From Lachnospiraceae bacterium (GTDB lineage Bacteria > Bacillota > Clostridia > Lachnospirales > Lachnospiraceae), in the NCBI GenBank assembly GCA_910575255.1, contig CAJTEM010000012.1, positions 1 to 64,000 on the forward strand: 64,000 bases of DNA, read 5' to 3'. Made by a program: the position numbers and the translations under genes. The notes beneath the pieces were generated by a model. It saw only the letters and a list, made by a program, of their open reading frames with translations, was not told the origin of the DNA and did not search any database. Positions 13,678 to 36,138 of this stretch are shown piece after piece (the stretch's first letter is position 1; every line of letters starts with the position of its first letter).

Positions 13678-16600
13678 TCACTGACCGGATTCGTCCTTGC
13701 GCCTCCGGAGTCCTGCCGCCGTAAGAAGCATTCCCAGGCCCGCGATTCCGAACATCATCATCAATACGCGGGTATGACGGCTGTCACCGGTCTTCGGCAG
13801 AGCCGCTAACGGCACCTCACTTTCCACGATCGTCTCGGTGAACGAATCCGGCGGAAGGCTTGCCAGCGGCACTCCCGGTTCCTCAATCGGTGTTGTGGCT
13901 CCCGGACCTCCCGGAGTATTGCCGCCTCCGCCAGGGTTGCCGCCTCCGCCTCCCGGATGATGCGGCCTGTCAGGCGTTGACGGAGGATTCTCATTTTTGG
14001 TATTGATGAACGTAACAAGAACGCCGTCTACCGTGATTTCCCCGGATGCATTGGAAGCTTCCACTACATAATCCGCGTTATCATGCTCCTCTACCACATA
14101 GCCGACAGAAACCGGAAGACCTTCTGCCGTAGCAGACTCTCCGCCCTTCAGCTTCAATTCCGCCACGCCGTTTACAAAGTTCATGTCGCCATACTGGCCA
14201 TGGATGCTCTTATCCTCCAGGGTCACAGTAAAGGGGAACTCCTTTTGGGGATCTGCCTGATTCCCACTGATGATTTTCCTCACGGTAAGCTTCCCGCTCT
14301 GGTTCACAAAATCCACCTTTGCTGCCTGGCTGTCTGTAATCGTTCCGCTTACTCCGTCTGCATTTTCTGTAACCGTGCTGCCTTCGCTGCCCTTTACCTC
14401 GGCATAAAGCCCCTGGGTATTGGCCTCATCTTCTGTGACGGTGTATCTCGTGCCAACCGGCAGATCCACAAAGGTAAGGAACTGCCCATGCTTCAGGCGG
14501 AATCTGGCCTTTCCCTGCTCCAGGCTCACCGAGCCATTCTGCGGAGCTTCCACTCCTGCGATCATGCTGCCTCCCTGGTAAGCAACCACAGGCGCCTGCA
14601 TTCCGGCATCCAGTCCCTCGGAGGTATCTTTCGAGACCCCGAAAGAATTCCCGTTTTCGTCAAGCAGCTGCAGGGTAAAGGACCACTCATAATCATGGAA
14701 TGCCTCATTGCCTTTAACCGTCTTACTGACGGTTAAGATATTCGTCTTTGTGTTCACAAAGGAAGCTTTTGCCGTCTGCCTGTCTGCAATCGCGCCTTTG
14801 ATTCCCTTGATCCTCTGCTCTTCATCTGTGATCGGATCCGCTTCTACGTTTCCGACTACACTTGTGATAAATCCTTCCTCATTGGCCTTGACCTCAGAAA
14901 CTTCATATACGGAGCCAACCGGAATATCCCGGATCGTGATTGTCTGGCCGTGCTTTAAAGCAAATCTTATCTTTTCCTCGTCTTCGGCTCCCTGCGGATC
15001 CTTCCAGGCAAGAGAACCGGTATCCACAACCGTCCCGTTCACGCTGATCTCATAGGGCAGAACCTCCTGCTGCATTTCACCGTCCAATTCCCACTCTCCG
15101 CGCAATTCTGCAAAGGACGGGCTGTCCGGATCACGATGCAGCTTCAGTTCAAACTCCCACTCGTCATTCTTCGCTTTCTCATCGCCAATGACAGTCTTTG
15201 TGACTGCCAGAGAACCCAGCCGTGCATTGATAAACTGAACTGCTGCCATATTCCCGGTTTCTTTGTCCGGAGTAACCGTGCCTTCGATACCGATGATCCT
15301 GGTCGGATCCTCCGGATCCCAGATCTCCTTGCTGCCCGTGTTTCCGATGACTCTGATCTCAAAGCCTGTTTCCGCAGCGCCCTCTTCCTGAATCTGATAA
15401 CGGGTTCCGGCCGGAATGCCCTTGAATGTGATGGTCTGATCCTTTTTCAGCACAAACCTTATCTCGCCATTCTCCCCGTCTATTGGCAGTCTGCCCTCCT
15501 CGGCTTCCTCTGATTCCTTCCCGTCTGTATACCTGGTAAATGCTACCGTATTGACTTTCTCTGCACTGGCAAGGGGATTGGGCAGGCCTTTTACAGGCTT
15601 CCCGTCCTCATCAAGCAATATCAGGACAAACGTCCAGCTTTCCCCATCCGTCTTGCCGACCACCTTCTTGCTGACCGACAGATCACTTAACTGCATGTTG
15701 ACAAAGTCCACCTGCGATTTTTCCTGCCACAGGGAGGTTCCTGAACTTTGGGATTCCGTTCCTGGTGCACGGATCGTACCTTCTGCACCGATCACCTTTG
15801 TTGCGTCGTTTTCATCCTCTATGGCAATCGTATCCTCGCTCTCTCTGACTGTGGTAATATATCCGTCCTCATTTGCTGCATCTTCCACCACATGGTAAAC
15901 GGTTCCTGCCGGCAAATCGTCAAAGAGGATCGTCTGGCCGTGTTTCAGGGCGAACTTGACTGTCCCATCTTCCAAAGTAAGGGTGCCATACTCTGTCGTC
16001 GCCTCTTTGCCCTCACTTTGCTGAGTCTTTAAGGCGAAAGCGATTATGCTGTCAGAAGCACCTGTTTCTCCCGTCAGGGGGTTCCCCTCGGAATCGGACA
16101 GGAATAAAGTAAAGCCCCACTCCTTTTCCTGCGCTTCCTTACTTCCCAGAACCGTCTTGCTGACTCCAAAATATCCGGGACCCTTCTCGCCCAGATCCAA
16201 ATAACCATTGCACATGATACCGCCGCCGTGGGTCGTGGAAGTGTTACCGGTAATCCTGACCAGCGCCCTGCTTTCCGCATAAGCCTTGCCGGAATCGTCT
16301 GGGAACGCTTTCAGTCCCATCCGGTAAGAAGCTGTTTTGCATTCATAGCGGTCGATCGTAATTGCTTCCGTCTCTGTACCCTCGCTTTGTTTGCTGCTTC
16401 CCTTCCAGTTCGCGCTGCCGCCGCCCAGCATTTTCCCATAGACTATGCTCTCGTTCTGGCAGTAATAATCCTGATAAAGGCCGTCCTGCATAAAGATCGG
16501 GTCTGCCTGTGCTTCCTTGTCCTGGGTCTTATGGTCTTCCTCTGTCCTTTCCGTCATTCCTGTGCCATTTGCCTGATTGTCATAAATCGCCGCACCATTA

Positions 16601-19600
16601 ACGGTAAAGATTTTCACATGTCCGGAAGGACAGCCCGCCACACCGCCGCCAAAGCCTTCCGCTGTATTATCTGTAACCAGGACATTCGTCATTTTAACGG
16701 TCACGCCGGTCTGGATGAAGATTCCGCCGCCGCCCCAGTCAAATGCGGTCTGCGTCTCGTTGTTGGTGATAGAACCGCCCCCGATGATCCCGTCCCAGCC
16801 AAAATAGATGCCGCCGCCCTCACCGCCTTTTTTCTTATTCTCCTCTCCAGGCCCGAATTTCGCACCAGCCTTATTTCCATCGATCACTCCGCCGGTCATG
16901 AGAAAATCAGCTTTCTCCTTATAGCCATCGCGGTAATCCACATAGACTCCGCCGCCATCGGCCACGGCTTCATTTCCGCTGATTTTCCCTCCCGATATTG
17001 TCAGCTTTCCGTTGGAGAAAATCCCGCCGCCGCCGGATCCTGCATAATAACCAACCTTATCCTCATGCACTGATGGCTCCACCTTGTCAGAATAGTTGCT
17101 GATGATTTTGGCATCGCCGGTCACCTCTGCCGAAGCATCGGGGCAGATGTAGATACCGCCGCCATTATTGGCAGCCGTATTTCCCTTGATCTCGCCGCCG
17201 GTCACCTCATGGAATCCGCCCAGAAGGTAAATGCCGCCGCCATCAGCAGCGTTATTCCCTTCAATACTGCCTCCATAGACTTTTACATTACCTTTTACAG
17301 CATAAATACCACCGCCGTTTTTCGCGGTATTCCCTTTAATGCTGCCATTGTTTATATTCACAATTCCTTTGTCAAGATAAATACCGCCGCCGTCTGTGTT
17401 GACTGTTCCATGGTTTTCAATGCTGGCGCCATTTACATTGAGTACAGCATTCCATCCGTTTACCCGCACCCCGTATTCGCTGGTGCAGCCTTCTCCTGGC
17501 CGGATGGTACCTCCCTCAAGATTCAGTGTCCCGGGATTATCTACATAGATCATCGATTCGACATCCCGATTGCTGTCAATCACTCCCGTACCTATGCTGT
17601 CCATAACGGTTAGCGTTCCCCAGACATAAAACAGACGATGGTTGCTGCTTCCACTCCCGCCATAAGTAAGCGTGTGGCCATTTAAGTCAATAACAAAATC
17701 CTTGCCTGCCGGGATGGCCCATCCATGATCTCCATCTTGAATATTGTCATTGTTGTACGTCACAATATCACTGCTCAGATAAATCTTTTTCGTTTCCCCT
17801 GCAGCAGGAGGATTTATCAAAGCTGTATGAAGCTCCTTCAAATTTTTTGCTTCAATCCACCCTTCATGGCTAATCTCCACACTCTTCGTAACCACAGCCG
17901 CCCATGGTGAAAAGCTCTCTGCCTCAAATGCCAGCTCCTCCACATCGGTATCCGAAACTTCTTTCACGGTCTTCGCCTCTTCTCCTTCCGGGAAGTGCAT
18001 AACCGAAATTCCGGAGGCTTCCTCTGCCATTTCCCCGGTGATTGCAGGCTCCTTAAAGCTGATGCTTACATTTACCGGTTTGCCCGGCTCCACCTCTTCG
18101 TCCGAAGTTGTGAAAAACGCAAGGTCATATGCGAGAATTCCCGCGACAGCCTGCCCTTCTCCTACCGCTTCCTCCGCCTGGCCGGTCAGGTCTTCAAGGA
18201 CATCTTCATCAAGGATTTTCTCTGCACGGAACTCCACTTCTTCCTCAAAAGCATCGCCCGGCACATTTACCGTAAAGACCGCGTCCTCTGTCTCTGCCTC
18301 ATAGACACGCTCAGGGATCACGATCTCGGTCTCTTCCACCTCGATCTCGACAGACAATTCCTCTGTCACGTTTTCCACGACATAGGTATGACCGTAGCCT
18401 TCCCAATCGGAAGCGCTGGCCAGATCAGACCCCTCTTCTGTCTCTTCTGTCTCGGCTCCATTGATCCGTACAGCAAGGATCTCATATCCTTCTTCCGGCT
18501 CCACCGCAAAATACAGGTCTTCTCCCTCTGCCACGCGGTTTTCGCCTTTTACCTTGGCTCCCTCGGGCAGATTCACCTCGTAACTCACAGCATATTCTGC
18601 TTCTGCCTCGTCACTGGCCAGGATCTTTTCGATATCCTCCCATTCCAGCTTGAATGCCCTGGCATTCACATGGTCGAGGATTGTCACCGTATCATATTCT
18701 TTTCCCTTCAGCTCTCCCAAAATCTCGATCTCGTCATCCTCAAGCAGCTGGCCGTCCATATCGATGGCATCACCCTTGCTGCTTCCGCCGGAATCCTCAT
18801 CCGGAATGGCAGAAGAGGAGCTTCCCTCGCTTCCCTCAGCTTCGGTTTCTTCCCCGGCTTCGCTTCCGGTTATGCTCTCCTCCGGCTGGTTCCCGGCTTC
18901 CGTTCCTGCCTCAATGTCAACATCCGGCTTTTCTGTGATGTTGTCTGATTCCGTGTCCGATTTACTTTCTGTTTCCGATCCGCCTTCGGTTTGATCTTCG
19001 GATCCGGTTTCCTTCCCGGATTCTGTTTCCTTTTCTGCTTCAGTTTCTTTTCCTGCTTCTGCTTCTCCGGATTCCGTTTCTCCGGTTTTGGTCTCCTCAG
19101 TTTTGGTTTCCTCGGATCCTTCTCCCTCGGCTTTGGTCTCACTGGATTCGTCTTTCTCAGCCTTCTCCTCCCCGGATTCGATTTTCCCTTCTTCACCCTC
19201 CTCAGGTGCGGTCGTTTCTTCCTCTGTTTCTTCCTCGGCCTCTTCTTCCGAAGCCGCAGTTTCCTCCTCAATCTCTGCTTCTTCGCTCTCCAGCTCATCC
19301 ACAGAAATCGTCACAACGGCGGCCACATGGCGGGAAAGGCTCAGCAGTTCTTCTTCTACTTTCTCTGCTTCGCTCTCCTCCTCAGATGCTTCTGGCTCTG
19401 CGGCCTCGGCCGGTTCTGTCTCGGGCTCTGCTTCGTTCTCCTCTTGTGTTTCTTCCCCGGCTTCTGATGCAGACTCTTCTTCCGTTTCTTCTGCCTCTCC
19501 GGCTTCCGGCTCTTCCTGGCTTTCTTCCTTTTCCTCAGGCTTTTCCTGCCCGGCCTCTCCGCTTCCGTTGCCGTCAGAATCATCGGATGCTGCGGTTTCC

Positions 19601-20298
19601 TCCGTCTCCTCAGTGGACGGCTTCTCCTCTGCATCGTCATCCTTTTGTTCGGAATCGTCTCCCTGCTCCTTGTCCGCTGCAGCTTCTGTCTCACTTCCTG
19701 CTTCCGACGTCTCCTCCGGATTCAGCACCTCAGCTTCCAGCTTCTTTGCTTCATCGTCAATCATGTCCGCTGCTTCATAGTTCTCTGCATAGGACGGGAC
19801 TTCCTCTCCCTCTGCCTCAATATTGGCCGTGTTGGGATTCACCCGCACTGGCTCGGTCTCATATCCGTCGATATTCACCCGATAATCCACTACCAGGTCG
19901 CTCCCGTTCAGGAACAGGAAAATCACATCCTCAGTCCCTGCGTTGTAGAAGACCTGCAGTTCGGTTCCTTCCGGCGCATAACTGTCATCGATCTCCAGAT
20001 TCAAGGCATAGACCGCTCCTTCCTTCTTTCCCAACAGCTTCTCATAGCGGGTCTTGATGCTCTTTCTCTTGGCCGCCAGACGCAGCTCGGAGAAGGCAAA
20101 CACTTCCCCCTGCTCCCTGGCTTCCCGGATCGCTTCCTGCAGATCCTTCCCGTCCACCAAAAACAGGGCATTCTCCGTCTCACCCGCTGCAAAGATCGTG
20201 CCCAGATTCCCGCCGGCATTGGTAATCACCATGGCCATTGTCAGCAGAGATGCAATCAGACGCCGGTAGTTCCTGCGAATTGTTTTCCACATACTCAT
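13678..20298 (-). CDS. Giant LPxTG surface protein with beta-helix and DUF5979-type domains
   Basis: A 2206-aa sortase substrate. Order: signal peptide (about 1-38), a conserved N-terminal domain (40-180), a long Glu/Ser/Thr-rich acidic stretch (about 190-530), two beta-rich domains (about 540-850), a parallel beta-helix region with repeated GGGIY...G..N.A units (about 900-1330), five DUF5979/Cna-B-like repeats each opening with L-V-K-V-G type sequence (LSVSKKVVG, LAVTKTVIG, LTVSKTVKG), a Gly/Pro-rich wall-spanning linker, LPKTGD, a hydrophobic helix and RRRKDESGQ. The start has GGAGG 5 nt upstream. It is likely an adhesin or wall stalk, inferred from architecture. It is a paralogue of the next gene upstream, separated from it by a strong terminator, so it may depend on read-through or its own promoter. 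Confidence 0.9.
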   Translation of the reverse strand: MSMWKTIRRNYRRLIASLLTMAMVITNAGGNLGTIFAAGETENALFLVDGKDLQEAIREAREQGEVFAFSELRLAAKRKSIKTRYEKLLGKKEGAVYALNLEIDDSYAPEGTELQVFYNAGTEDVIFLFLNGSDLVVDYRVNIDGYETEPVRVNPNTANIEAEGEEVPSYAENYEAADMIDDEAKKLEAEVLNPEETSEAGSETEAAADKEQGDDSEQKDDDAEEKPSTEETEETAASDDSDGNGSGEAGQEKPEEKEESQEEPEAGEAEETEEESASEAGEETQEENEAEPETEPAEAAEPEASEEESEAEKVEEELLSLSRHVAAVVTISVDELESEEAEIEEETAASEEEAEEETEEETTAPEEGEEGKIESGEEKAEKDESSETKAEGEGSEETKTEETKTGETESGEAEAGKETEAEKETESGKETGSEDQTEGGSETESKSDTESDNITEKPDVDIEAGTEAGNQPEESITGSEAGEETEAEGSEGSSSSAIPDEDSGGSSKGDAIDMDGQLLEDDEIEILGELKGKEYDTVTILDHVNARAFKLEWEDIEKILASDEAEAEYAVSYEVNLPEGAKVKGENRVAEGEDLYFAVEPEEGYEILAVRINGAETEETEEGSDLASASDWEGYGHTYVVENVTEELSVEIEVEETEIVIPERVYEAETEDAVFTVNVPGDAFEEEVEFRAEKILDEDVLEDLTGQAEEAVGEGQAVAGILAYDLAFFTTSDEEVEPGKPVNVSISFKEPAITGEMAEEASGISVMHFPEGEEAKTVKEVSDTDVEELAFEAESFSPWAAVVTKSVEISHEGWIEAKNLKELHTALINPPAAGETKKIYLSSDIVTYNNDNIQDGDHGWAIPAGKDFVIDLNGHTLTYGGSGSSNHRLFYVWGTLTVMDSIGTGVIDSNRDVESMIYVDNPGTLNLEGGTIRPGEGCTSEYGVRVNGWNAVLNVNGASIENHGTVNTDGGGIYLDKGIVNINNGSIKGNTAKNGGGIYAVKGNVKVYGGSIEGNNAADGGGIYLLGGFHEVTGGEIKGNTAANNGGGIYICPDASAEVTGDAKIISNYSDKVEPSVHEDKVGYYAGSGGGGIFSNGKLTISGGKISGNEAVADGGGVYVDYRDGYKEKADFLMTGGVIDGNKAGAKFGPGEENKKKGGEGGGIYFGWDGIIGGGSITNNETQTAFDWGGGGIFIQTGVTVKMTNVLVTDNTAEGFGGGVAGCPSGHVKIFTVNGAAIYDNQANGTGMTERTEEDHKTQDKEAQADPIFMQDGLYQDYYCQNESIVYGKMLGGGSANWKGSSKQSEGTETEAITIDRYECKTASYRMGLKAFPDDSGKAYAESRALVRITGNTSTTHGGGIMCNGYLDLGEKGPGYFGVSKTVLGSKEAQEKEWGFTLFLSDSEGNPLTGETGASDSIIAFALKTQQSEGKEATTEYGTLTLEDGTVKFALKHGQTILFDDLPAGTVYHVVEDAANEDGYITTVRESEDTIAIEDENDATKVIGAEGTIRAPGTESQSSGTSLWQEKSQVDFVNMQLSDLSVSKKVVGKTDGESWTFVLILLDEDGKPVKGLPNPLASAEKVNTVAFTRYTDGKESEEAEEGRLPIDGENGEIRFVLKKDQTITFKGIPAGTRYQIQEEGAAETGFEIRVIGNTGSKEIWDPEDPTRIIGIEGTVTPDKETGNMAAVQFINARLGSLAVTKTVIGDEKAKNDEWEFELKLHRDPDSPSFAELRGEWELDGEMQQEVLPYEISVNGTVVDTGSLAWKDPQGAEDEEKIRFALKHGQTITIRDIPVGSVYEVSEVKANEEGFITSVVGNVEADPITDEEQRIKGIKGAIADRQTAKASFVNTKTNILTVSKTVKGNEAFHDYEWSFTLQLLDENGNSFGVSKDTSEGLDAGMQAPVVAYQGGSMIAGVEAPQNGSVSLEQGKARFRLKHGQFLTFVDLPVGTRYTVTEDEANTQGLYAEVKGSEGSTVTENADGVSGTITDSQAAKVDFVNQSGKLTVRKIISGNQADPQKEFPFTVTLEDKSIHGQYGDMNFVNGVAELKLKGGESATAEGLPVSVGYVVEEHDNADYVVEASNASGEITVDGVLVTFINTKNENPPSTPDRPHHPGGGGGNPGGGGNTPGGPGATTPIEEPGVPLASLPPDSFTETIVESEVPLAALPKTGDSRHTRVLMMMFGIAGLGMLLTAAGLRRRKDESGQ

Positions 20299-20441: not shown

Positions 20442-23400
20442 TTAGTCATCTGATTCATCTTTACGCTTTCTGAATCCTGCTGCCGTAAGAAGCATTCCTA
20501 ATCCTGCGATTCCGAACATCATCATTAATGCTTTGGTATGACGACTGTCGCCGGTTCTCGGCAGAGCTGCCAACGGCACCTCGGAATCTTCAATCAATTC
20601 CGTCATAGACTCTGGCGGAAGGTTTGCCAACGGCACTCCCGGTTCTTCGATCGTTGTGGTTCCCGGGCCTCCTGGCGGGTTGCCGCCGCCGGGATTACCT
20701 CCTCCGGGGTTGCCGCCGCCTCCGCCTGGGCGATCCGGTCTGCCGGGAGTATTGGGTGTATGGGTATTCGTAATAACCATAAGATCTCCCTCATAGGTGA
20801 TAACTGCCGAATATCCGTCAGGTATTTCTATTTCTTCTACCGTATAAGAAATCTGATTTCCATTACGGTTTACGGGAAGATCCGTCCATGTATACTTCCA
20901 GCCATTCGTTTCATTTAATATCACAACAGCTACTTCCTGACCATCTGCCAGAAGTCTTGCCTGAATGGAAACCGGGCGCAGATTGTCTTTGTTTTCATTA
21001 TCGTCCCAGCGTTTTTCCACAGTTTTGGAAACTGTTAAAGGCTGATAGGTATTGGTAATGATGAATTTCGTTCCTGTCTCCTGAACCTCTGCCACATACT
21101 TCTCCGGTACATTTACTTCCTCCACCGAATAAGTAATCGGTTTGCCGTTATCATTTACAAACAGATCATTCCATGTGTAAGACCAACCATTTTCCTCACT
21201 CAGAGTTACTGCATCGCCAGAAGCCCTCTTATCTCCGTCAATAGTTTCATATAACTGCACGGTTACGGTTTCCGGACGCACATGGTCTCTGTTTTCTCCA
21301 TCTTTCCAGATTTTTTCTACGGTGCGGCTGGTTCGTCCAGGCGTATGCACGTTCTTAATGTCATACTCGCCTAATCTTGAATCGGCTTTCGGATAAACCG
21401 TACTGTAATCCTTTACCTCTTCCTCACTGACCGTATAGATAACCCGATCTCCATTACCATCCCATTCGGGAAGCTCGGTAAACTTCCAGGACCAATTGTT
21501 GGATGCATCTGCTTTCACCACCTGATCATAGGTCAATCCGTTGGATGCTGTCAGAGTAACATGAATGCTTTCGGGACGTACGCCATCACGGTTCCCATCA
21601 TCGTCCCACTCTTTGGAACCACTGATTTCGATCTTGCTTACATTTACACGAGAAACTTCAAAGATGTTTCCTGTTTCATTTGCCGTAACAATATCCGATT
21701 TGTAGGTGTAGTAATCTCCTTCTTCCTCTTCCACTTCGTAAGTAAAGCCTTCAGGCAGGCCGTCCACTACGGCAGACTGGCCGCTCTTCAGATAGAATTC
21801 GATCTCATTATTGTAAATGGGATACAGCGTTCCGTCCATCTGGAGGGCAAACATCTTATCTCCTACATTATCCAGCTTCAGGGTGAACTTATAGCTGGCG
21901 TCCGGATCCAGTCCGTGTGCGGTCTTGGTGATTACCAGTTTGTCGGACAGTTCTCCACTGGGTTCATTCGTAATGGTCGCGATATAGTATTTATCCGCGA
22001 TTGCGGAAAATTGTGTATCTTTCTCAATCTTTACCGTAGAGTTGTAACCGTGGACAGAAGCCTCTTTCACACCCCATTCAAACTCATTGCCCAGGTTGGT
22101 CCAGGTATAACTCCAGTTATTTCCTTTGTTCAGGATCACAGAGGAATCACTGCGGAAGTCTTTATCCACGATCTTGCCGTCCTTGGTCAGATAGACCAGA
22201 ATCTGGTCGTTATCGTGGTTTTTATCGTCAGCCCACTCCTTAACCACCTTCAGGCTCTTGGTTTCGGTACCAATCTTCAGAATACCGTTGGTCATGATGC
22301 CGGAACCGAACTGACTGGCATAGTTATCAGTAATAATCACACCATCTTTCTCAGCGGTCTCGTAAGCAGCATCAATCACACTTTCGGCGGCCTCAGTATA
22401 AAGACGGAAGTAGCCCTCGATGAACTGGTAATTGGAAGTATCCAATATGTTGCCTTTGCTATCCGTATACCTGACCTCGCCGCCACCAGGAGCATTGCTT
22501 GGCAGGTAAACCTTAGGATCAGCAGCCGTTGGATTAATAGTACCAGCCTTAATTACGCCGATATCCGGATTCTTGCCGTTGTTAATTGACAGAAGCCCCT
22601 CCAGCTCATATATCGCCACCTCGCCGCTGGGACACACCGCCACTGCGGTATAACCGTTACCCGCCTTATCGCTGTCCCTGTTTCCGCTGACATAAACATT
22701 CTTCATATGAGCAGTAGTGCCGCTCTGAATGTAAATTGCACCGCCGTCAAAGTAAGCCATGAACCGATTAGACTGATTATTGGTAAAAGTAGCCTTGTAA
22801 ATATAGTGGTGAGTATTGGCGTTGGTGCCGTTCACCAGGAATACACCGCCACCCAGCTGAGCGGATACGTTGCTGTCGAACAGAGTCCGGCCGCCCTGCA
22901 CACCAAATTCACTGGATGTTGCTTCAATATATGCACCTCCGCCGCCATTGCCGCCGGTGGCTGTGTTCTTGGATACAGTACCACCCTCGAAAACAATCGC
23001 CTTGCTGCCACCGCCCATAGCGTAGATTCCGCCGCCCTCGCAAGCGGTATTGTTCCTAATCTCGCCGCCGCTCATGGTCAGGCTGCCCTGTAAAACATAG
23101 ATGGCGCCGCCTTTACCTTTCGTTGCAGCATTCTTACCATTCTCAATTACCGTATCGCCCGCAATGGTCAGATGACCGCTGCTGGGAACATAGATCAGAG
23201 ACTGATCACCGGCTACATTCTGACCGTCAATATGGGCGTTATTCAGAATAACATCACCATTGATGGTAAACATATGACCAGTAGGATGATCCATACAGCG
23301 GACAAAGGTGACGCCGCTGTTCAAAGAAACAGCACTGGCCATATCTACTGTGGTGTTGCCGCAAACATAGATTTTATCTATGTCATTGTCTTGGGCCGCT

Positions 23401-26400
23401 TTAACTGCCTCGGCCAAATTGTCCGCTTTAATATCCTTCTCACCAGTGTGGGCGCCATTCAGATAAACCCGCGCAGGTTCCTCCGTGCTGGTATAATAGC
23501 CCATCGGCCAGGAATAGCTGTTGCCGGAAAGCCAATAATAACCATTTGGGTTTATCTTTGTACGATCAAATTTAGTTAGAGTATGCTGATTACCATCCTC
23601 ATCAGTAAAAGGATTTTGGATCTTCAACTCCAGATGGGCGTGGGTAAAATTATTAGGATCCTTCGCGGAACCAGATGACGTCACCTTAGTGGAAGATAAC
23701 ACCACATCTGCGCTGCCATGAGTATTCGTGCCCGGTATCAGTTTATCATTAGGAGTATAGTTATTGTAAATGCGCGTGCTGCCACTCAAAGTAACTCTGC
23801 CCTCGGTACTTGCCACATACAAACCGCCGCCGATCTGCCCATATCCCATAGCCTTAGTCACTTTGTCGTTAGCCGTGTTTCTGGTTATGACCGTATCATG
23901 AATGATCGTCGTGCCCTTATTGTCCAGATAGATAGCTCCGCCTCGCTTCTTGGCAGTATTGTCGGTAATTGTACATCCCTTAATTTCGATGGAAGTATTG
24001 CTATCGGAACCGTAAAAGTAAAACGCGCCTCCAAATTCCTTAGTGTTCTCATTCTTAGTAGCTACAACATTCTCTAAGATTACTTTTTTGCCCTTGATGC
24101 TGTTGGCATTCAGTACACTGCCTCCGGAATACATGGAACTCGTTCCGATGTTGCCGGTGGCAACGACATTTCTCAGCGTAATATCGGCACCGCCTCTGAC
24201 TACACCGCTGCCGCTATTGTTGGTAAGCGTCGTGCCATCCATCACAAAGGAACCATTTGAAACATCAATTATTGCGCTCCCATCAGCGATGTTATCACTA
24301 ATCTCACCTTTGCTAACCGTCGTTTCTGAGTTGCTAAGATATACTATTGCTACGTTAAGGCTATTGTTTTTAATAATCTCGCACTCATTCAAAGTCAGTT
24401 TTGTTTTACCGGCATAGATAGCTCTGATGTTTTCGTTGAAAGTACATCCGGTCAGTTCAGCTGTCAAACTGCCAAGAGAAGAAGCATTCAGATAAAGCGC
24501 TGTAACAGGTCCGGTGAACTTGACATCACGTAATGTAAGAATTCCGGCCTTGGCTTCAATCGCTTTGCATTTTTCGACAGCGCTGCTCATCGTACCATTT
24601 TTCACTTCCACATTGCCTGCACTGATGGTCAATGCAGTTTCATTGTCTGCTCCCCTCCAGGTATGTTCGTTCAGGTCGAACGTTACGTTCTTGGAAATGG
24701 TAACACTCTCAGTAAAGTCATCCAACAATGTAATAGTATCGCCATCTGCGGCCCTGGCAACAGCCATGGCGATTGTCGGATACCCCGTTTCACCCACGGT
24801 AACCCTTGGCTTCATAACCAATGCGCGCATATACAGAGAAAAACTGTCTGCCTGGAAAGAAAATTCTGTGGTATCGGCATTCTCTGCACTGGCTACCGTT
24901 TTTGCCTCAGCGTCATCGGGTAAATGGACAACCACTATTTCCTTTGCCGCTTCTGCGGCTTCGTTTTTGTCAGATGCAATCGCTTCCTTAAAGCTCATAT
25001 CCACTGCCACCGGCTTTAAAGGCTCGATCTCTTCGCCGGATTCCAGGGCAATAAAGGCAATATCATATGCCTCCGCTTCCGCAATAGCCTGACCGTCTTT
25101 TAATGCATCATTAGCTTGCTTCACCAATTCCTTCAGCTCGGCTTCCCCTTCGATTTTGGTTACCCGAAGCTTTACTTTCTCTTTAAAGGCGCCGTCCGGC
25201 ACATCCACTGAGAATACCGCGTCACCGGTCTCAGCCGTATAAGTCTCCGCCGCAATCACCAGCTCTTCCGCCTCAACCTCAACCCAGAGATCCTCTTCCA
25301 CTCCCTCTACCACATACACATGGGAGTAGCCCTTCCAGTTCGAGGCGCTCGCCAGCTCTGAGATGTCTTCAATCTCTTCCACCTCACTACCATTCGCATA
25401 CACTCCGACAATCTCAAAGCCCTCTTCCGGCTCCACTGCAAAATACAGGTTCTCACCCTCGGACACGCTGTTCGCACCCTTCACGGTCGCTGCCTCCGGG
25501 AAATTCACCCCATAGTCCACCACATAGTCCATCGCTTCGCTGACGATAATCGCTTCGATATCCTCCAGCGCAATCTTCCAGGCTTTTGCATTCACATGAT
25601 CCAGAATGGTTACCGTATCATATTCCTTACCCTTCAGTTCTCCCAGAATTTCTATATCATCACCTTCCAGCAGCTGGCCATCCATCTCGATCTGGTCGCC
25701 CTTTCCGCTGCCATCCGAATCCGGGATATCAGCTGCAGTGGAGTCCTCCTCCGGGATCTCTGCACTGTCATCCTTACCGGTCTCCTCTATTATAATATCC
25801 TTGCCATCTTCTGCTCCGGTCTCGCTCTCTCCCGGCTTGCTTTCTGCCTCAGTTCCGGCTTCGCTCTCTTCCGGCTTCTTCTCGGTCTCGGTTCCGGCTG
25901 CGCCCTCCTCCGGTACGTTCCCGGTCTCGGCTCCGCTCTCTTCTTCCTTCTCCTCTGCATCGGCTTCGGTCTCGTCTGCTTTGCTCTCAGACTCCGTCTC
26001 CGCTTCGGTCTCTTTCTCAGTTTCTGCCTCGGATTCCTTCTCGGTTTCTGCTTCTGTCTCCGCCTCAGCCTCCTCTTCAGTTTCCTCCTCAGAAGCCTCG
26101 GTCTCTTCCGCAATCCCTGCTTCTCTGTCTTCCAGCTCTTCCACGGATACTGCCACGATGGCTGCCTCATGACGGGAAATGCTTAACAGCTCTCCGTCCT
26201 CGTCCCCGGCTTCCTCAGAAGCTTCCGTCTCAGCTTCCGTCTCGGCTTCCGTCTCAGCCTCTGTGTCGTTTTCCTTCTCTTCTACACTCTCTGACTCCGC
26301 TCCGGTCTCGCCTTCATCCTCCGGCGTTCCCGCTTCTGCCTCATCGCTTCCCTCCGCTTCCTCAGAAGCTTCGGTTCCTTCGGTCTCTGCAGAGTCATTG

Positions 26401-27125
26401 TTCTCTTTGCTTTCTTCAGAAGCATCTACAGCCTCACTGCTCTCCTCCGTCGCAGCATCGCCGGTCTCCTCAGTGGAAGTGTTATCCTTGCCCTCTTCCT
26501 CCGCGGTTCCCGGCTCTTCCTCTGCCGTTCCTGTTGTCTCCTCCGGATTCAGCACCTCGGCTCCCAGCTTCTTCGCTTCGTCGTCGATCATGTCCGCCGC
26601 TTCATAATTCTCCGCATAGGACGGGGCTTCCCCACCGTCTGCCTCAATGTTGGCAGTGTTCGGATTCACCCGCACCGGCTCGGTCTCATAGCCGTCGATG
26701 TTCACCCGGTAATCCACGACCATGTCGCTTCCGTTCAGGAACAGGAAAATCACATCCTCGGTTCCTGCGTTGTAGAATACCTGCAGCTCGGTTCCTTCCG
26801 GCGCATAGCTGTCGTCAATCTCTAAGTTCAGGGCGTAGACCGCTCCTTCCTTCTTTCCCAACAGCTTCTCATAACGGGTCTTAATGCTCTTTCTCTTTGC
26901 CGCCAGATGCAGCTCGGAGAAATCAAATACTTCTCCCTGCTCCCTGGCTTCCCGGATAGCTTCCTTAAGCTCTTCTCCTTCTACCAGGAACAGGGCATTC
27001 TCTGTCTCGCCTGCCGCAAAGATCGTGCCCAGATTCCCGCCGGCATTGGTCACCACCATGGCCATGGTCAGCAGGGATGCAATCAGGCGTCTGTAGTTCT
27101 TGCGAATTGTCTTCCACATACCCAT
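20442..27125 (-). CDS. Giant LPxTG surface protein with beta-helix and Cna-B domains
   Basis: A 2227-aa wall-anchored protein, paralogous to the 2206-aa protein. The first ~180 residues (signal peptide MGMWKTIRKNYRRLIASLL, then a domain ending near ADMIDDEAKKL) and the last ~100 (Gly/Pro linker, LPRTGD, membrane helix, RKRKDESDD) nearly match it. Between lie an acidic low-complexity region (about 190-520), two beta-rich domains, a beta-helix (about 790-1500) and a stalk including at least four Cna-B-like repeats with hallmark (W/K)DD(G/N)NRDGVRPESIHVTL-type sequence. Cna-B domains commonly carry intramolecular isopeptide bonds. The gene follows a small unknown gene by about 80 bp and lies downstream of the invertible promoter at 27835-27863, so its expression is probably phase variable. 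Confidence 0.9.
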   Translation of the reverse strand: MGMWKTIRKNYRRLIASLLTMAMVVTNAGGNLGTIFAAGETENALFLVEGEELKEAIREAREQGEVFDFSELHLAAKRKSIKTRYEKLLGKKEGAVYALNLEIDDSYAPEGTELQVFYNAGTEDVIFLFLNGSDMVVDYRVNIDGYETEPVRVNPNTANIEADGGEAPSYAENYEAADMIDDEAKKLGAEVLNPEETTGTAEEEPGTAEEEGKDNTSTEETGDAATEESSEAVDASEESKENNDSAETEGTEASEEAEGSDEAEAGTPEDEGETGAESESVEEKENDTEAETEAETEAETEASEEAGDEDGELLSISRHEAAIVAVSVEELEDREAGIAEETEASEEETEEEAEAETEAETEKESEAETEKETEAETESESKADETEADAEEKEEESGAETGNVPEEGAAGTETEKKPEESEAGTEAESKPGESETGAEDGKDIIIEETGKDDSAEIPEEDSTAADIPDSDGSGKGDQIEMDGQLLEGDDIEILGELKGKEYDTVTILDHVNAKAWKIALEDIEAIIVSEAMDYVVDYGVNFPEAATVKGANSVSEGENLYFAVEPEEGFEIVGVYANGSEVEEIEDISELASASNWKGYSHVYVVEGVEEDLWVEVEAEELVIAAETYTAETGDAVFSVDVPDGAFKEKVKLRVTKIEGEAELKELVKQANDALKDGQAIAEAEAYDIAFIALESGEEIEPLKPVAVDMSFKEAIASDKNEAAEAAKEIVVVHLPDDAEAKTVASAENADTTEFSFQADSFSLYMRALVMKPRVTVGETGYPTIAMAVARAADGDTITLLDDFTESVTISKNVTFDLNEHTWRGADNETALTISAGNVEVKNGTMSSAVEKCKAIEAKAGILTLRDVKFTGPVTALYLNASSLGSLTAELTGCTFNENIRAIYAGKTKLTLNECEIIKNNSLNVAIVYLSNSETTVSKGEISDNIADGSAIIDVSNGSFVMDGTTLTNNSGSGVVRGGADITLRNVVATGNIGTSSMYSGGSVLNANSIKGKKVILENVVATKNENTKEFGGAFYFYGSDSNTSIEIKGCTITDNTAKKRGGAIYLDNKGTTIIHDTVITRNTANDKVTKAMGYGQIGGGLYVASTEGRVTLSGSTRIYNNYTPNDKLIPGTNTHGSADVVLSSTKVTSSGSAKDPNNFTHAHLELKIQNPFTDEDGNQHTLTKFDRTKINPNGYYWLSGNSYSWPMGYYTSTEEPARVYLNGAHTGEKDIKADNLAEAVKAAQDNDIDKIYVCGNTTVDMASAVSLNSGVTFVRCMDHPTGHMFTINGDVILNNAHIDGQNVAGDQSLIYVPSSGHLTIAGDTVIENGKNAATKGKGGAIYVLQGSLTMSGGEIRNNTACEGGGIYAMGGGSKAIVFEGGTVSKNTATGGNGGGGAYIEATSSEFGVQGGRTLFDSNVSAQLGGGVFLVNGTNANTHHYIYKATFTNNQSNRFMAYFDGGAIYIQSGTTAHMKNVYVSGNRDSDKAGNGYTAVAVCPSGEVAIYELEGLLSINNGKNPDIGVIKAGTINPTAADPKVYLPSNAPGGGEVRYTDSKGNILDTSNYQFIEGYFRLYTEAAESVIDAAYETAEKDGVIITDNYASQFGSGIMTNGILKIGTETKSLKVVKEWADDKNHDNDQILVYLTKDGKIVDKDFRSDSSVILNKGNNWSYTWTNLGNEFEWGVKEASVHGYNSTVKIEKDTQFSAIADKYYIATITNEPSGELSDKLVITKTAHGLDPDASYKFTLKLDNVGDKMFALQMDGTLYPIYNNEIEFYLKSGQSAVVDGLPEGFTYEVEEEEGDYYTYKSDIVTANETGNIFEVSRVNVSKIEISGSKEWDDDGNRDGVRPESIHVTLTASNGLTYDQVVKADASNNWSWKFTELPEWDGNGDRVIYTVSEEEVKDYSTVYPKADSRLGEYDIKNVHTPGRTSRTVEKIWKDGENRDHVRPETVTVQLYETIDGDKRASGDAVTLSEENGWSYTWNDLFVNDNGKPITYSVEEVNVPEKYVAEVQETGTKFIITNTYQPLTVSKTVEKRWDDNENKDNLRPVSIQARLLADGQEVAVVILNETNGWKYTWTDLPVNRNGNQISYTVEEIEIPDGYSAVITYEGDLMVITNTHTPNTPGRPDRPGGGGGNPGGGNPGGGNPPGGPGTTTIEEPGVPLANLPPESMTELIEDSEVPLAALPRTGDSRHTKALMMMFGIAGLGMLLTAAGFRKRKDESDD

Positions 27126-27208: not shown

Positions 27209-27748
27209 TCAGTCACCATCCGGACTGTGACTTTCTGCCGTACATTGCATCATTTCCGAAAAAAGGTACATCAGTTCCAATGCACTGCGGAAATATACCT
27301 CTTTTTCTCCCGTACTCCTGCAGCGGATCCTCCCCTGAAGGCTCATGTGCTGCATTCCCAACAGCTCTACACGAACGATCTCCTGTGCCTTTTTCAGATG
27401 CATTCCCTGACAAAAGCTGTATCTGGCCCGCTGCCCGGCCGGTATTACTTTACTGTATTCCTCCGGAAGGAGGCCGGTTCCTTCCGAATGCTCCTGAGCC
27501 AGAGACCGATAGGGGGAAGTGTCTCCCTGAAGCTTTAAAAAACGTGCGATCTCGTCAATCCGGAATCCCAGCTGTGCCAGCCCGTGAAAGGGAACCGGTC
27601 TTAACAGATTCATATGTACAATTTCTCCATAAGGTTCCCGCCCCTCTTCCTTCGTCCCGGAAATGTGGATCAACATCGTGTTGCTGTAGCCTGATGCCTT
27701 TTTTCTGATCCTTCTGGTATCTGTCTGCTCCTTCCACTCTACAGGCAA
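27209..27748 (-). CDS. Unknown protein, first gene of the switched surface operon
   Basis: About 179 aa, not recognised. I favour the TTG at 27748, since AGGGAGGTGAT lies 8 nt upstream; a GTG at 27757 would sit inside that Shine-Dalgarno. No signal peptide or membrane helix is seen, so the protein is probably cytoplasmic. The middle holds PVPFHGLAQLGFRIDEIARFLKLQG, and the C-terminal part has alternating hydrophobic stretches (QEIVRVELLGMQHMSLQGRIRC). It is the first gene after the invertible promoter and ends about 80 bp before the 2227-aa surface protein gene with no clear terminator between, suggesting a linked role in surface expression. That role is inference. Confidence 0.7.
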   Translation of the reverse strand: MPVEWKEQTDTRRIRKKASGYSNTMLIHISGTKEEGREPYGEIVHMNLLRPVPFHGLAQLGFRIDEIARFLKLQGDTSPYRSLAQEHSEGTGLLPEEYSKVIPAGQRARYSFCQGMHLKKAQEIVRVELLGMQHMSLQGRIRCRSTGEKEVYFRSALELMYLFSEMMQCTAESHSPDGD

Positions 27749-27775
27749 CGTGATCACCTCCCTGGCTCTTCCGTT

Positions 27776-27801
27776 TATGACATAATGGATATTATGTCAT
27801 A
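27776..27801. repeat. Left inverted repeat (crossover site) of the invertible segment
   Basis: Two 11-bp arms, TATGACATAAT and ATTATGTCATA, flank an asymmetric core GGAT. The 26 bp are the exact reverse complement of 27996-28021, where the core reads ATCC. A palindrome with a short asymmetric spacer is the usual form of a tyrosine-recombinase crossover site, and the opposite core orientation predicts inversion, not deletion. Confidence 0.85.
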
Positions 27802-27995
27802 GCTTATAGGTACGCATCTCTTATATTCAGCCTAAGTATAGCGCATCTGGTTTCAATTTTCAACCATTTTTTGGTTTTTTACATAAAAAAATAGCCATTC
27901 GCCATTACGGATGGGCGCAAGGACCGAAGTGGACAGGTTTTTATGATATTTTTCAGAATTAATGGAAGATATCATCAGAAACGTGTCCATTTTTT
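27802..27995. mobile_element. Putative invertible promoter segment (phase switch)
   Basis: This 194-bp segment between the inverted repeats has no gene. It holds a promoter firing leftward into the surface operon (27835-27863) and an intrinsic terminator near the other end (27930-27996). Flipping it would replace the promoter facing the operon with the terminator and turn the promoter toward the 3' end of the recombinase gene, as antisense. As given, the segment is in the operon-ON orientation. Confidence 0.75.
27835..27863 (-). promoter_or_regulatory. Near-consensus promoter inside the invertible segment
   Basis: On the minus strand -35 TTGAAA (27863-27858), a 17-nt spacer (27857-27841) and -10 TATACT (27840-27835) give a start near 27828. 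That is about 80 nt before the TTG of the 27748 gene, with the left inverted repeat lying in the leader. Confidence 0.8.
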
Positions 27996-27996
27996 T
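27930..27996 (+). terminator. Intrinsic terminator inside the invertible segment
   Basis: TGGACA (27930-27935) pairs with TGTCCA (27984-27989), then GTTTTT pairs with AGAAAC (one wobble), and ATGATAT (27943-27949) pairs with ATATCAT (27969-27975). This gives about 19 pairs with one mismatch and one bulge. Seven Ts follow (27990-27996). In the flipped state it would point at the surface operon. Confidence 0.75.
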
Positions 27997-28021
27997 ATGA
28001 CATAATATCCATTATGTCATA
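27996..28021. repeat. Right inverted repeat (crossover site) of the invertible segment
   Basis: This site has the same arms as 27776-27801 with the core in the opposite sense (ATCC), making a perfect 26-bp inverted pair. It ends 9 bp before the recombinase stop codon at 28030. Confidence 0.85.
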
Positions 28022-28029
28022 GTTATTTT

Positions 28030-29256
28030 TTATCTCCCCTCATCCCTTTCCTCCTCTTCACGGATATATTCTTCCACCCTCTTCTGCCGGATTCTCCTGT
28101 CCGGAAGATATCCCTCCACCAGCATTCCCAGCTCCAGCTGCCGCAGGCAGGCCCTCATGCTGCTGACCATGGTATATCTGCGTGTTGTCTCCACATTGCT
28201 GTGCCCCAGATAATCCGCCAGACGCACAATATCCTTTTCCTTCTCATAATAAGTCCGTGCAAACAAATGCCGCAGATTGTGCGGAAATCCCTTTTTTTCC
28301 ATGACTCCTGCCATCTGGCAGAGCTTTTTCATCTCTGCCCATATATTCCTCCGATCCACCGGTCTTCCGCTTCGGGTAATGAAGATACTGCCGGTCTGGA
28401 TTTTCTCCTGCACGCAATACTCCCTCAGCAGCTTCACCAGGGATTGCGGGAGCACGATACATCGCTCCTTTCCCTTGGAGCGGATGCATACGATCATCTT
28501 ATCCAGGGCTTCCACCGTGATATACGGAAGCTCTCCTACCCGGATTCCGGTGCTTCCGATCGTCTGGAGAATACAGCCCAGCCGCGGGTTGCCATCCTGC
28601 TTTGCCCGAATAACCAGCCTGCGGTACTCCTCCTGTGACAGCTCTTTATCCTCCTCCCGGAAGATCTGTCTCTGAACCCGGCACAGCTTTACGCAGCAAT
28701 CCTCCCTGCCGATAAATTTCAGATACCCGTTCAGGGCTGCCAGCATGGAATTGGTGCTGGTTACCTTATAGCGTTCGATCAGGTATTCCTTATAGCAAAG
28801 AACCCACTCTCGCTTCAGTATCCTGTCTCCCGGACTGTCGTCACCACTTCGTATTTTCCCCCTGCCCTCTTCTTTCCCGTCCTCTGCACAGACCCTTTCT
28901 CTCTCCTGTGCCCCGATGTCATCCCCTCCCTCTGCTTTTGCTCTGTCCGGACCCTGTCTCCCCCGGTCAATATCCGTGCGAGCCTTGTCCGGCAATTCGG
29001 CGCTGTCTCTGTTCTCCGCCTTCATGCGAATCTGAACAAACCGAAAAAAATCCCTGACATCATGCACGTATTTTCTTACAGTATTCGGATGCCGTTCCCG
29101 CTCATATAGATAATTTTCATATATATAGATGCTTTGTTCCGCAGCTGTCCGATACATCTCCTGGTCTCTATACTGATTTGCCATACCTGCTACCTGTCCT
29201 TTTCTATAGTATTTGCTCCGGATCGTATTGGAAAAATCATCCCGGGCAGAAAGCAT
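28030..29256 (-). CDS. Tyrosine recombinase, probable invertase of the adjacent switch
   Basis: A XerC/D-type site-specific recombinase of about 408 aa. The C-terminal catalytic domain shows the full set: R in GSTGIRVGEL, K in SKGKERCIVLP, HNLRH, GHSNVETTRRY with the nucleophilic Tyr. The N-terminal SAM-like core-binding domain is present but split by a charged low-complexity insert of about 60 residues (AENRDSAELPDKARTD...). I chose the ATG at 29256 because GGGAGG lies about 11 nt upstream; 29295 has no ribosome site and follows a TATAAT close by. It ends 9 bp from an inverted-repeat site, and no other phage or transposon gene is near, which supports a local invertase role. Confidence 0.85.
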   Translation of the reverse strand: MLSARDDFSNTIRSKYYRKGQVAGMANQYRDQEMYRTAAEQSIYIYENYLYERERHPNTVRKYVHDVRDFFRFVQIRMKAENRDSAELPDKARTDIDRGRQGPDRAKAEGGDDIGAQERERVCAEDGKEEGRGKIRSGDDSPGDRILKREWVLCYKEYLIERYKVTSTNSMLAALNGYLKFIGREDCCVKLCRVQRQIFREEDKELSQEEYRRLVIRAKQDGNPRLGCILQTIGSTGIRVGELPYITVEALDKMIVCIRSKGKERCIVLPQSLVKLLREYCVQEKIQTGSIFITRSGRPVDRRNIWAEMKKLCQMAGVMEKKGFPHNLRHLFARTYYEKEKDIVRLADYLGHSNVETTRRYTMVSSMRACLRQLELGMLVEGYLPDRRIRQKRVEEYIREEEERDEGR

Positions 29257-29390
29257 TTCTCCAATACCCTCCCTATAGGTCACATTATAATACATTAATT
29301 ATCATGCGAACGGTAACATATTCGGCAAATATTGTATTTTCCCATAAAAAATTTACAGCGAATTATGATAGGTTCAATTTTTCTGACGAA

Positions 29391-35852: not shown

Positions 35853-35951
35853 GAAAGAAATCAAGTGCTTTTTAACATTTTCTTTATTCCTTTTTCCTTC
35901 TATGAAATATGCTTTGACATGAGCCTTTTAAGCTGATAAAATAATTTCATG

Positions 35952-36138
35952 ATACCAGGGTCAAAAGGTCTGAGATCCGATGCAAGCTTGCTTGCAAGAG
36001 GATTTTTGAACTTGGGACCCGTAGGAAACAGGAAAAAGCAGCCCGATTAGGGCGGATTTTGAATGTTTTTGAGAATTGCGGGAGCACAAAGTGCGGAGCA
36101 ATCCGGTATCAGAGGGGTCAAAAGACCTTTTGACCCCA
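35952..36138. repeat. GGGTCAAAAGACC-type hairpin repeat
   Basis: The region contains GGGTCAAAAGGTCTGAGATCC, then GATGCAAGCTTGCTTGCAAG, and ends GGTATCAGAGGGGTCAAAAG and its palindromic continuation. The end block (GGAGCAATCCGGTATCAGAG...CAAAAGACC) recurs inverted at 50943-50985, so it is a dispersed repeat. The rest of the dctP-lacI gap holds the operators and the regulator's ribosome site. Confidence 0.6.

Follow-up and report, generated by a model that had tools for sequence, protein, structure and literature searches.

A predicted invertible promoter segment with an adjacent tyrosine recombinase gene ahead of giant surface protein genes in a Lachnospiraceae genome

What is the function of a short segment of DNA, flanked by perfect inverted repeats, that lies between a tyrosine recombinase gene and an operon for giant surface proteins? 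The question arises from a stretch of 64,000 nucleotides of a Lachnospiraceae bacterium (GenBank assembly GCA_910575255.1, contig CAJTEM010000012.1, positions 1 to 64,000), which we call the window. We consider it very probable that the locus works as a phase-variation switch for the surface proteins, based on site-specific DNA inversion. The mechanism is classical, and the locus is well supported as part of a family of related elements. An original prediction, made from the sequence of the window, had proposed that a promoter upstream of the surface operon can be inverted by a tyrosine recombinase of its own, with the assembly showing the ON orientation. That proposal is backed by the related loci and by two inverted pairs of paralogues, and appears to be correct in outline.

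The segment, its sites and the adjoining recombinase gene

The putative invertible segment comprises 194 bp (27802-27995) between inverted repeats at 27776-27801 and 27996-28021, which are 26 bp each and 100% complementary. Each repeat is an 11-4-11 palindrome in its own right. The distal, operon-side site has arms TATGACATAAT and ATTATGTCATA with the core GGAT, while the proximal, recombinase-side site is its exact reverse complement with the core ATCC. All this is just as the original prediction described it, including the opposed 4-bp cores. A search allowing up to two mismatches in the 22 arm bases finds the site at two places only in the 5.14 Mb genome to which the window belongs, and exact matches to the inner 18-bp site, with the four core bases left free, occur only at the same two places.

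Between the repeats a sigma-70-type promoter, TTGAAA-17-TATACT, is predicted from its consensus match on the minus strand (27863-27835). It is aimed at the surface operon, as had been proposed, and it is the top of six promoter-like matches within 3.5 kb. Judged by the direction of this promoter the segment is in the ON orientation as assembled. The −10 element ends 33 bp short of the repeat that it faces, like that of most relatives.

At the recombinase end of the segment we predict an intrinsic terminator on the plus strand (27930-27996), with a stem at 27930-27989 followed by seven Ts at 27990-27996. The predicted fold has a minimum free energy of −33.2 kcal/mol (z = −9.5), and none of 200 shuffled sequences was equally stable. 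The opposite strand of the same stretch folds more weakly, at −14.8. A terminator with seven Ts had been expected here, and this part of the expectation holds; the stem is longer than the 19 pairs that had been assigned to it. A simple hairpin scan did not list the structure, its loop and bulges apparently falling beyond the rules of that scan. As assembled, the terminator is directed at the recombinase 3′ end; it would face the operon once the segment was inverted. Just upstream of the promoter a short hairpin with seven Ts (27885-27914, minus strand) is a possible weak second terminator. It could add insulation in the ON state, yet at −5.6 (z = −1.0), or −10.3 when a longer stretch is folded, it is not significant. 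The predicted operon leader in the ON state carries the recombination site as an 11-pair hairpin, and Rfam at its gathering threshold gave no RNA family at the element.

The recombinase gene lies on the minus strand at 28030-29295 and encodes 421 amino acids as the longest open reading frame (ORF); its start is uncertain, with 29256 as the alternative. The ORF matches Phage_integrase at 7e-24. The gene adjoins the right repeat as had been noted, with its stop codon 8 bp from the repeat where 9 bp had been given. The reading frame is open and all of the catalytic residues (R252, K276, H339, R342, H365 and Y374) are present. The same six residues are found in 60 to 62 of 65 rows of relatives, the remainder being gaps (3 or 4 rows) and single substitutions. 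By sequence, the relatives of solved structure are XerC-like, XerA, XerD and XerH proteins; in a profile search with the named Xer models the protein scored far below every cut-off. Relatives of the recombinase are mostly 273-331 amino acids in length. Between the two domains of the window's protein lies an insert of some 70 polar residues, at about 93-160. Its own genome has ten matches to it, the next best being 34% identical and on another contig, leaving a single close recombinase.

The association of site and recombinase is also seen elsewhere in the family. The arm search was made across 397 family genomes blind to the recombinase protein, and found the site in just eight, including the window's own. 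Six of the eight (the window's own genome, G019, G046, G119, G222 and G253) have a recombinase relative with a copy of the site within about 410 bp on its 3′ side. G019 has a second pair of copies without a recombinase relative, and in G342 and G033 the site lies near a contig end, with no recombinase relative within the stretch examined. The one other genome of the same genus in the set has neither the site nor a recombinase match. A search of viral contigs with the recombinase and a stretch of the element gave no match.

Related elements and their orientation

We searched for relatives of the recombinase at a threshold of 1e-45, and obtained matches in 79 of the 397 family genomes. The same protein identified 17 loci in named Clostridia genomes, including Anaerotignum, Blautia parvula and Oscillospiraceae bins. 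A part of the family-genome matches was retrieved and 89 recombinase loci were scanned for repeats; in 66 of these an inverted pair lies just 3′ of the recombinase relative. The repeats are 18-34 bp long with 151-375 bp between them, and 65 of the 66 pairs begin between −82 and +78 bp from the recombinase stop codon, the remaining one at 288 bp. In 12 of the 23 loci without a pair the contig ends about 210 bp or less from the stop codon; setting these aside the fraction becomes 66/77. Removal of one duplicate record (L075, identical to L015) left 65 distinct elements for all later counts. Applied to control windows at these 65 loci, the same detector called pairs in 2/177 further downstream, both of them the second element of L092, and in 2/61 upstream.

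Some individual loci may be recorded here. In L028 and L073 runs of N start at or within the element behind the recombinase, which fits assembly trouble at a flipping segment. In L035 (G119, contig C1 near 343.8 kb) the recombinase relative is followed by a lone site preceded by a run of about a dozen G, and the next gene resembles the flagellar gene flgB by eye only; here the element may have been lost and the operon locked.

The sites of the 65 elements have fixed arms and variable cores. The arm sequence ACATAAT is strongly conserved, with each of positions −7 to −1 retained in 217 to 252 of 256 half-sites. Across the loci 49 different 4-base cores occur, a self-complementary one in 1/65, and the two cores of one locus are exactly complementary in 60 of the 65. 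The other five, all of which were kept in the denominator, are L020, with one mismatch, and L082, L098, L123 and L128, which are probably mis-centred. Fixed arms with a free but locus-matched core are what tyrosine recombinases require for strand exchange between the paired sites of a locus. The elements L031, L037 and L069 each have at least one arm with TGACATAAT as in the window, or with that sequence changed at one base, and in a quick tree of 61 recombinases it is with the proteins of these three loci that the window's protein groups (SH-aLRT 99). In L031 and L032 (both G019) the sequence AGGAGG occurs within the segment, 7 bases ahead of an ATG that belongs to the site; with ACA TAA directly after it, this ATG may open a leader frame of two codons.

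Promoter-like sequences occupy a consistent position in the related segments. The −10 element of the best promoter lies within 60 bp of the repeat that it faces in 54/65 elements, compared with 18.4 ± 3.3 (maximum 25) in 40 shuffled sets, and the promoter score is 11 or more in 37/65 elements vs 3.0 ± 1.5 in shuffles. By promoter direction 45 elements point toward the recombinase (OFF) and eight, including the window's, toward the target (ON), with 12 undecided; the corresponding values for shuffles are about 19 and 17. The OFF layout that had been envisaged for the window, with the promoter toward the 3′ end of the recombinase gene, is apparently present in 45 of the 65 related elements.

Both orientations are found among paralogues with colinear flanks. 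In the pair L111 and L117, which belong to one genome, the recombinase flanks are 80% identical (876 bp) and the target flanks 79% identical (580 bp) in the same order, and the inner segments align mostly in inverted orientation (80% over 173 bp), with an additional 31-bp same-strand match (E = 0.006). In a second genome the target flanks of L031 and L032 are colinear (82% over 639 bp) and their inner segments are reversed (72% over 112 bp); no relative of the recombinase adjoins L032. When orientation is placed on the tree of 61 recombinases the eight ON rows need at least seven changes, so orientation is labile on this tree.

Contig ends provide a further possible sign of inversion. Among 128 rows of matches, counting those with known distance, a contig ends within 250 bp on the 3′ side of the recombinase in 12/101 and on the 5′ side in 1/101 (Fisher one-sided 0.001); within 400 bp the counts are 13 and 3 (Fisher one-sided 0.008). 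For the matches with length known on both sides the result is 10/71 vs 0/71 at 250 bp. Mixed orientations in a culture would break assemblies in this way, though other causes are conceivable.

A terminator at the far end from the promoter is common among the relatives, yet it is neither universal nor defining. In 27 of the 45 OFF elements a predicted terminator of −12 or better faces the target, and in 18 of the 45 it reaches −18 or better. Of 195 shuffled segments, made by dimer blocks rather than by exact dinucleotide shuffling, 6.7% reach −12 and 0.5% reach −18.

The genes behind the elements were examined for 61 of the 65, with proteins cut at 900 amino acids. Among the best 25 of 51 families, the first genes include eight signal peptidases, two CpsB/CapC proteins, two Rrf2 regulators, and one each with an SLH, a choline-binding and a pilin domain. 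The 47 second genes include two sortases together with pilin, Ig-like and capsule-type domains (best 25 of 53 families). Envelope functions are recurrent among the targets, though other kinds occur too, such as helicase-associated domains in four.

The proposed mechanism and its alternatives

We infer the following sequence of events for the window. The recombinase encoded at 28030-29295 would bind the 11-bp arms of both inverted sites, and strand exchange within the matched core would then invert the 194-bp segment in this strain. In the ON state the promoter of the segment would transcribe the small ORF and the genes for giant LPXTG surface proteins, and the terminator would halt antisense transcription into the recombinase gene. 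Inversion to the OFF state would turn the promoter toward the recombinase 3′ end and bring the strong terminator to face the operon, where it would halt read-through from the recombinase gene.

A number of observations weigh against this interpretation. The assembly presents this locus in a single orientation. Six promoter-like matches compare with a shuffle mean of 3.8 (standard deviation 1.8), so that the bare match alone is not significant. The promoter score, its bonuses and the margin of 1 used in assigning direction were our own choice, and its matches are matches to the consensus. With a margin of 2 the calls become 24 OFF and 6 ON, and the ON calls are few. Two of the eight are moreover doubtful: L015 has a low score, and L085 aligns in the same direction with L108, an element called OFF. 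Similar inner segments link 18 pairs of distinct elements, and 15 of these pairs match in the same orientation as against three in reverse. The three are L111/L117, for which the flanks were compared as well, L034/L100 (one genome, 62 bp) and L089/L104 (46 bp). The subset of the contig-end data that needs no information on length gives 3/66 vs 1/62 only.

The terminators and the sites add to the points on this side. In the OFF elements terminators facing the other way number 21 at −12 and eight at −18, many being bidirectional, and 18/45 have no target-facing terminator at −12. In ON elements at −18 the terminator faces the recombinase in 5/8 and the target in 3/8, so the expected bias is weak. 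The nearest kin of the window's element, L031, L037 and L069, have no terminator. No pair was called for 11 of the 77 relatives with sufficient downstream sequence; by eye, N gaps lie at the site in two of these, another has only one site, another a pair that is imperfect, and in seven nothing was recognised. In L017 and L051, both cut by a contig end, two sites lie behind the recombinase near that end in direct rather than inverted orientation. Inversion does not explain these, and they may be an assembly artefact or an arrangement of the excision type. Lastly, L032 of G019 and four elements in the window's own genome have no adjoining recombinase relative; the enzyme therefore need not be encoded in cis. 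The probability that we attach to an inversion switch holds because the anatomy, the cores and the two pairs of paralogues carry the case.

An alternative is that the segment inverts mainly as feedback on the recombinase, as the terminator of fimS does for fimE of Escherichia coli, and that read-through or other promoters chiefly drive the operon. The element lies directly against the recombinase gene in 66/89 loci, the promoters point at its 3′ end in 45 of the 53 decided elements, and a phase-variable terminator controlling a recombinase is known for fimE in the published passages on that system. However, the position of the promoter suits the target side equally well, many target genes start close behind the distal site, and several of the kinds of target are envelope genes. 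We regard this alternative as unlikely. It is about as unlikely, and if anything a little more so, that a formerly active switch is now locked in the ON state in this strain. The assembly shows a single orientation, most decided relatives are OFF, and the insert of about 70 residues in the recombinase is unusual; against this, neither site has a mismatch and the recombinase reading frame is uninterrupted, with every catalytic residue in place. That the recombinase acts elsewhere, in dimer resolution or on a mobile element, with the repeats as inert palindromes such as operators or transcript hairpins, is very improbable: the Xer proteins among its solved-structure relatives, the leader hairpin and the direct sites of L017 and L051 would suit it, but the sites form inverted pairs with matched private cores, which adjoin this recombinase family and are rare in control windows, segments occur in both orientations between colinear flanks, and the Xer family models were matched far below their cut-offs.

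Comparison with known switches, and a second set of sites

Invertible promoters have reportedly been described in gut metagenomes by Jiang and colleagues (2019). The inversion switch proposed here would work much as does the classic fimS switch of the type 1 fimbriae of E. coli. The original prediction did not recognise an element with both a promoter and an intrinsic terminator as described. To call the union of promoter and terminator undescribed is too strong, since fimS holds both, according to the relevant passages of PMC9993118. That segment contains the fim promoter along with a terminator for fimE that depends on Rho (passages of PMC9993118, PMC2784873 and PMC5386303). In both systems a surface operon has its promoter, predicted in the case of the window, on a short invertible segment, and a recombinase gene, fimE in E. 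coli, lies immediately 5′ of that segment. The terminator of fimS acts on fimE transcription in the OFF state, whereas the predicted hairpin of the window would in that state face transcription from the recombinase gene. The terminator of fimS is Rho-dependent, while that of the window is a strong intrinsic hairpin with seven Ts. Two recombinases (FimB and FimE) serve fimS and one is seen here; the likeness described is one of layout.

Site-specific inversion of surface and signalling genes is also established in Clostridia by the RecV switches of Clostridioides difficile (cwpV, cmr, pdcB and flagellar), so far as the published passages describe them. At cwpV an intrinsic terminator acts in an orientation-dependent manner in the OFF state, and most genomic DNA is in the OFF orientation (passages of PMC2784873), as most of the related elements here appear to be. 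As described in those passages cwpV has no promoter inside its element, where the window is predicted to have one. The cmr and pdcB elements have a promoter inside that is active in the ON orientation (passages of PMC8844915 and PMC9286219); those passages report no intrinsic terminator inside, and the word terminator was not found in the available text of the pdcB paper. A further difference is that RecV serves several switches, whereas most elements of the present family adjoin their own recombinase and have a private core.

A read-based survey of gut invertons gave a median of three per Clostridia-like genome, found promoters between inverted repeats near surface genes, a likeness to the present elements, and suggested terminator-like motifs for follow-up (passages of PMC11892184). 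Its main text contains no word beginning with Lachno, and those passages describe neither the ACATAAT site family nor the layout of promoter and terminator. Inversions in Clostridia have been reported, one of them in Anaerotignum propionicum (passages of PMC5903667). In searches of the open-licence literature we recognised no listed paper as describing a promoter, an intrinsic terminator and one adjacent recombinase in combination, nor the ACATAAT site family.

The surface operon itself begins with a gene on the minus strand at 27209-27748, with a TTG start at 27748 behind GGGAGGTGATC. Its product has no match in Pfam or NCBIfam. It is followed by genes for a 2227-amino-acid surface protein (20442-27125, minus strand), with Cna_B and DUF7601 domains and an LPRTG motif, and for a 2206-amino-acid surface protein (13678-20298, minus strand), with DUF7601 and DUF5979 domains and an LPKTG motif. 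The latter gene probably belongs to the same operon. Against the NCBIfam anchor model the two proteins score 55.0 and 47.4 respectively for a cut-off of 48, the second being marginally below.

Elsewhere in this genome there are two paralogues of the first operon gene (45% and 51%), each likewise ahead of a giant surface-type protein, and both are preceded by an inverted pair of TATAAT-N4-ATTATA type with 176-186 bp from start to start. Four elements of this type are found in the window's genome (G000), at C5:66687-66878 (L139), C9:80033-80234 (L140), C17:56433-56625 (L165) and C7 near 123 kb (L168); those on C17 and C7 are additional to the two ahead of the paralogues, and the cores are matched within each of the four. 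None of the ten recombinase matches of the genome is on a contig that carries one of these elements. Their inner segments align mutually and have a common promoter-like motif, TTGAAAC...GGTGTATTATCAT, which points away from the large gene behind the element in 4/4, while the consensus score alone leaves the direction undecided. Between the inner segments of the window's element and of the C9 element there is a weak reverse match (71% over 49 bp; E = 3e-5, the search being very small). A fifth candidate, on C9 near 65.5 kb, was not counted as it has one site only, and a site of this type at position 47154 of the window was rejected as a second element, lying within a coding frame and having no inverted partner.

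These observations can be brought together in a wider proposal, for which we see an even balance of probability. The elements would be self-contained memory switches present across the Clostridia, each with one recombinase and two sites with universal arms, and with the core as a private address. Often an intrinsic terminator at the far end would insulate the promoter, such that one flip connects the promoter and removes a roadblock. With private cores a genome could operate several switches of this kind and avoid cross-inversion between them; in the strain of the window one surface operon would depend on this set, and at least four more on the TATAAT-N4-ATTATA set, acting in trans. If true, this would add a large and recognisable class of phase switch to the gut Clostridia. 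A recombinase relative followed by an ACATAAT-N4-ATTATGT pair would provide a sequence signature for finding them, and a single recombinase with a private core and a built-in insulator would be an attractive set of natural parts for memory circuits.

Elsewhere in the window, a Clostridiales-1 RNA (Rfam RF01699) is found at 35950-36111, with a score of 121.6 bits.

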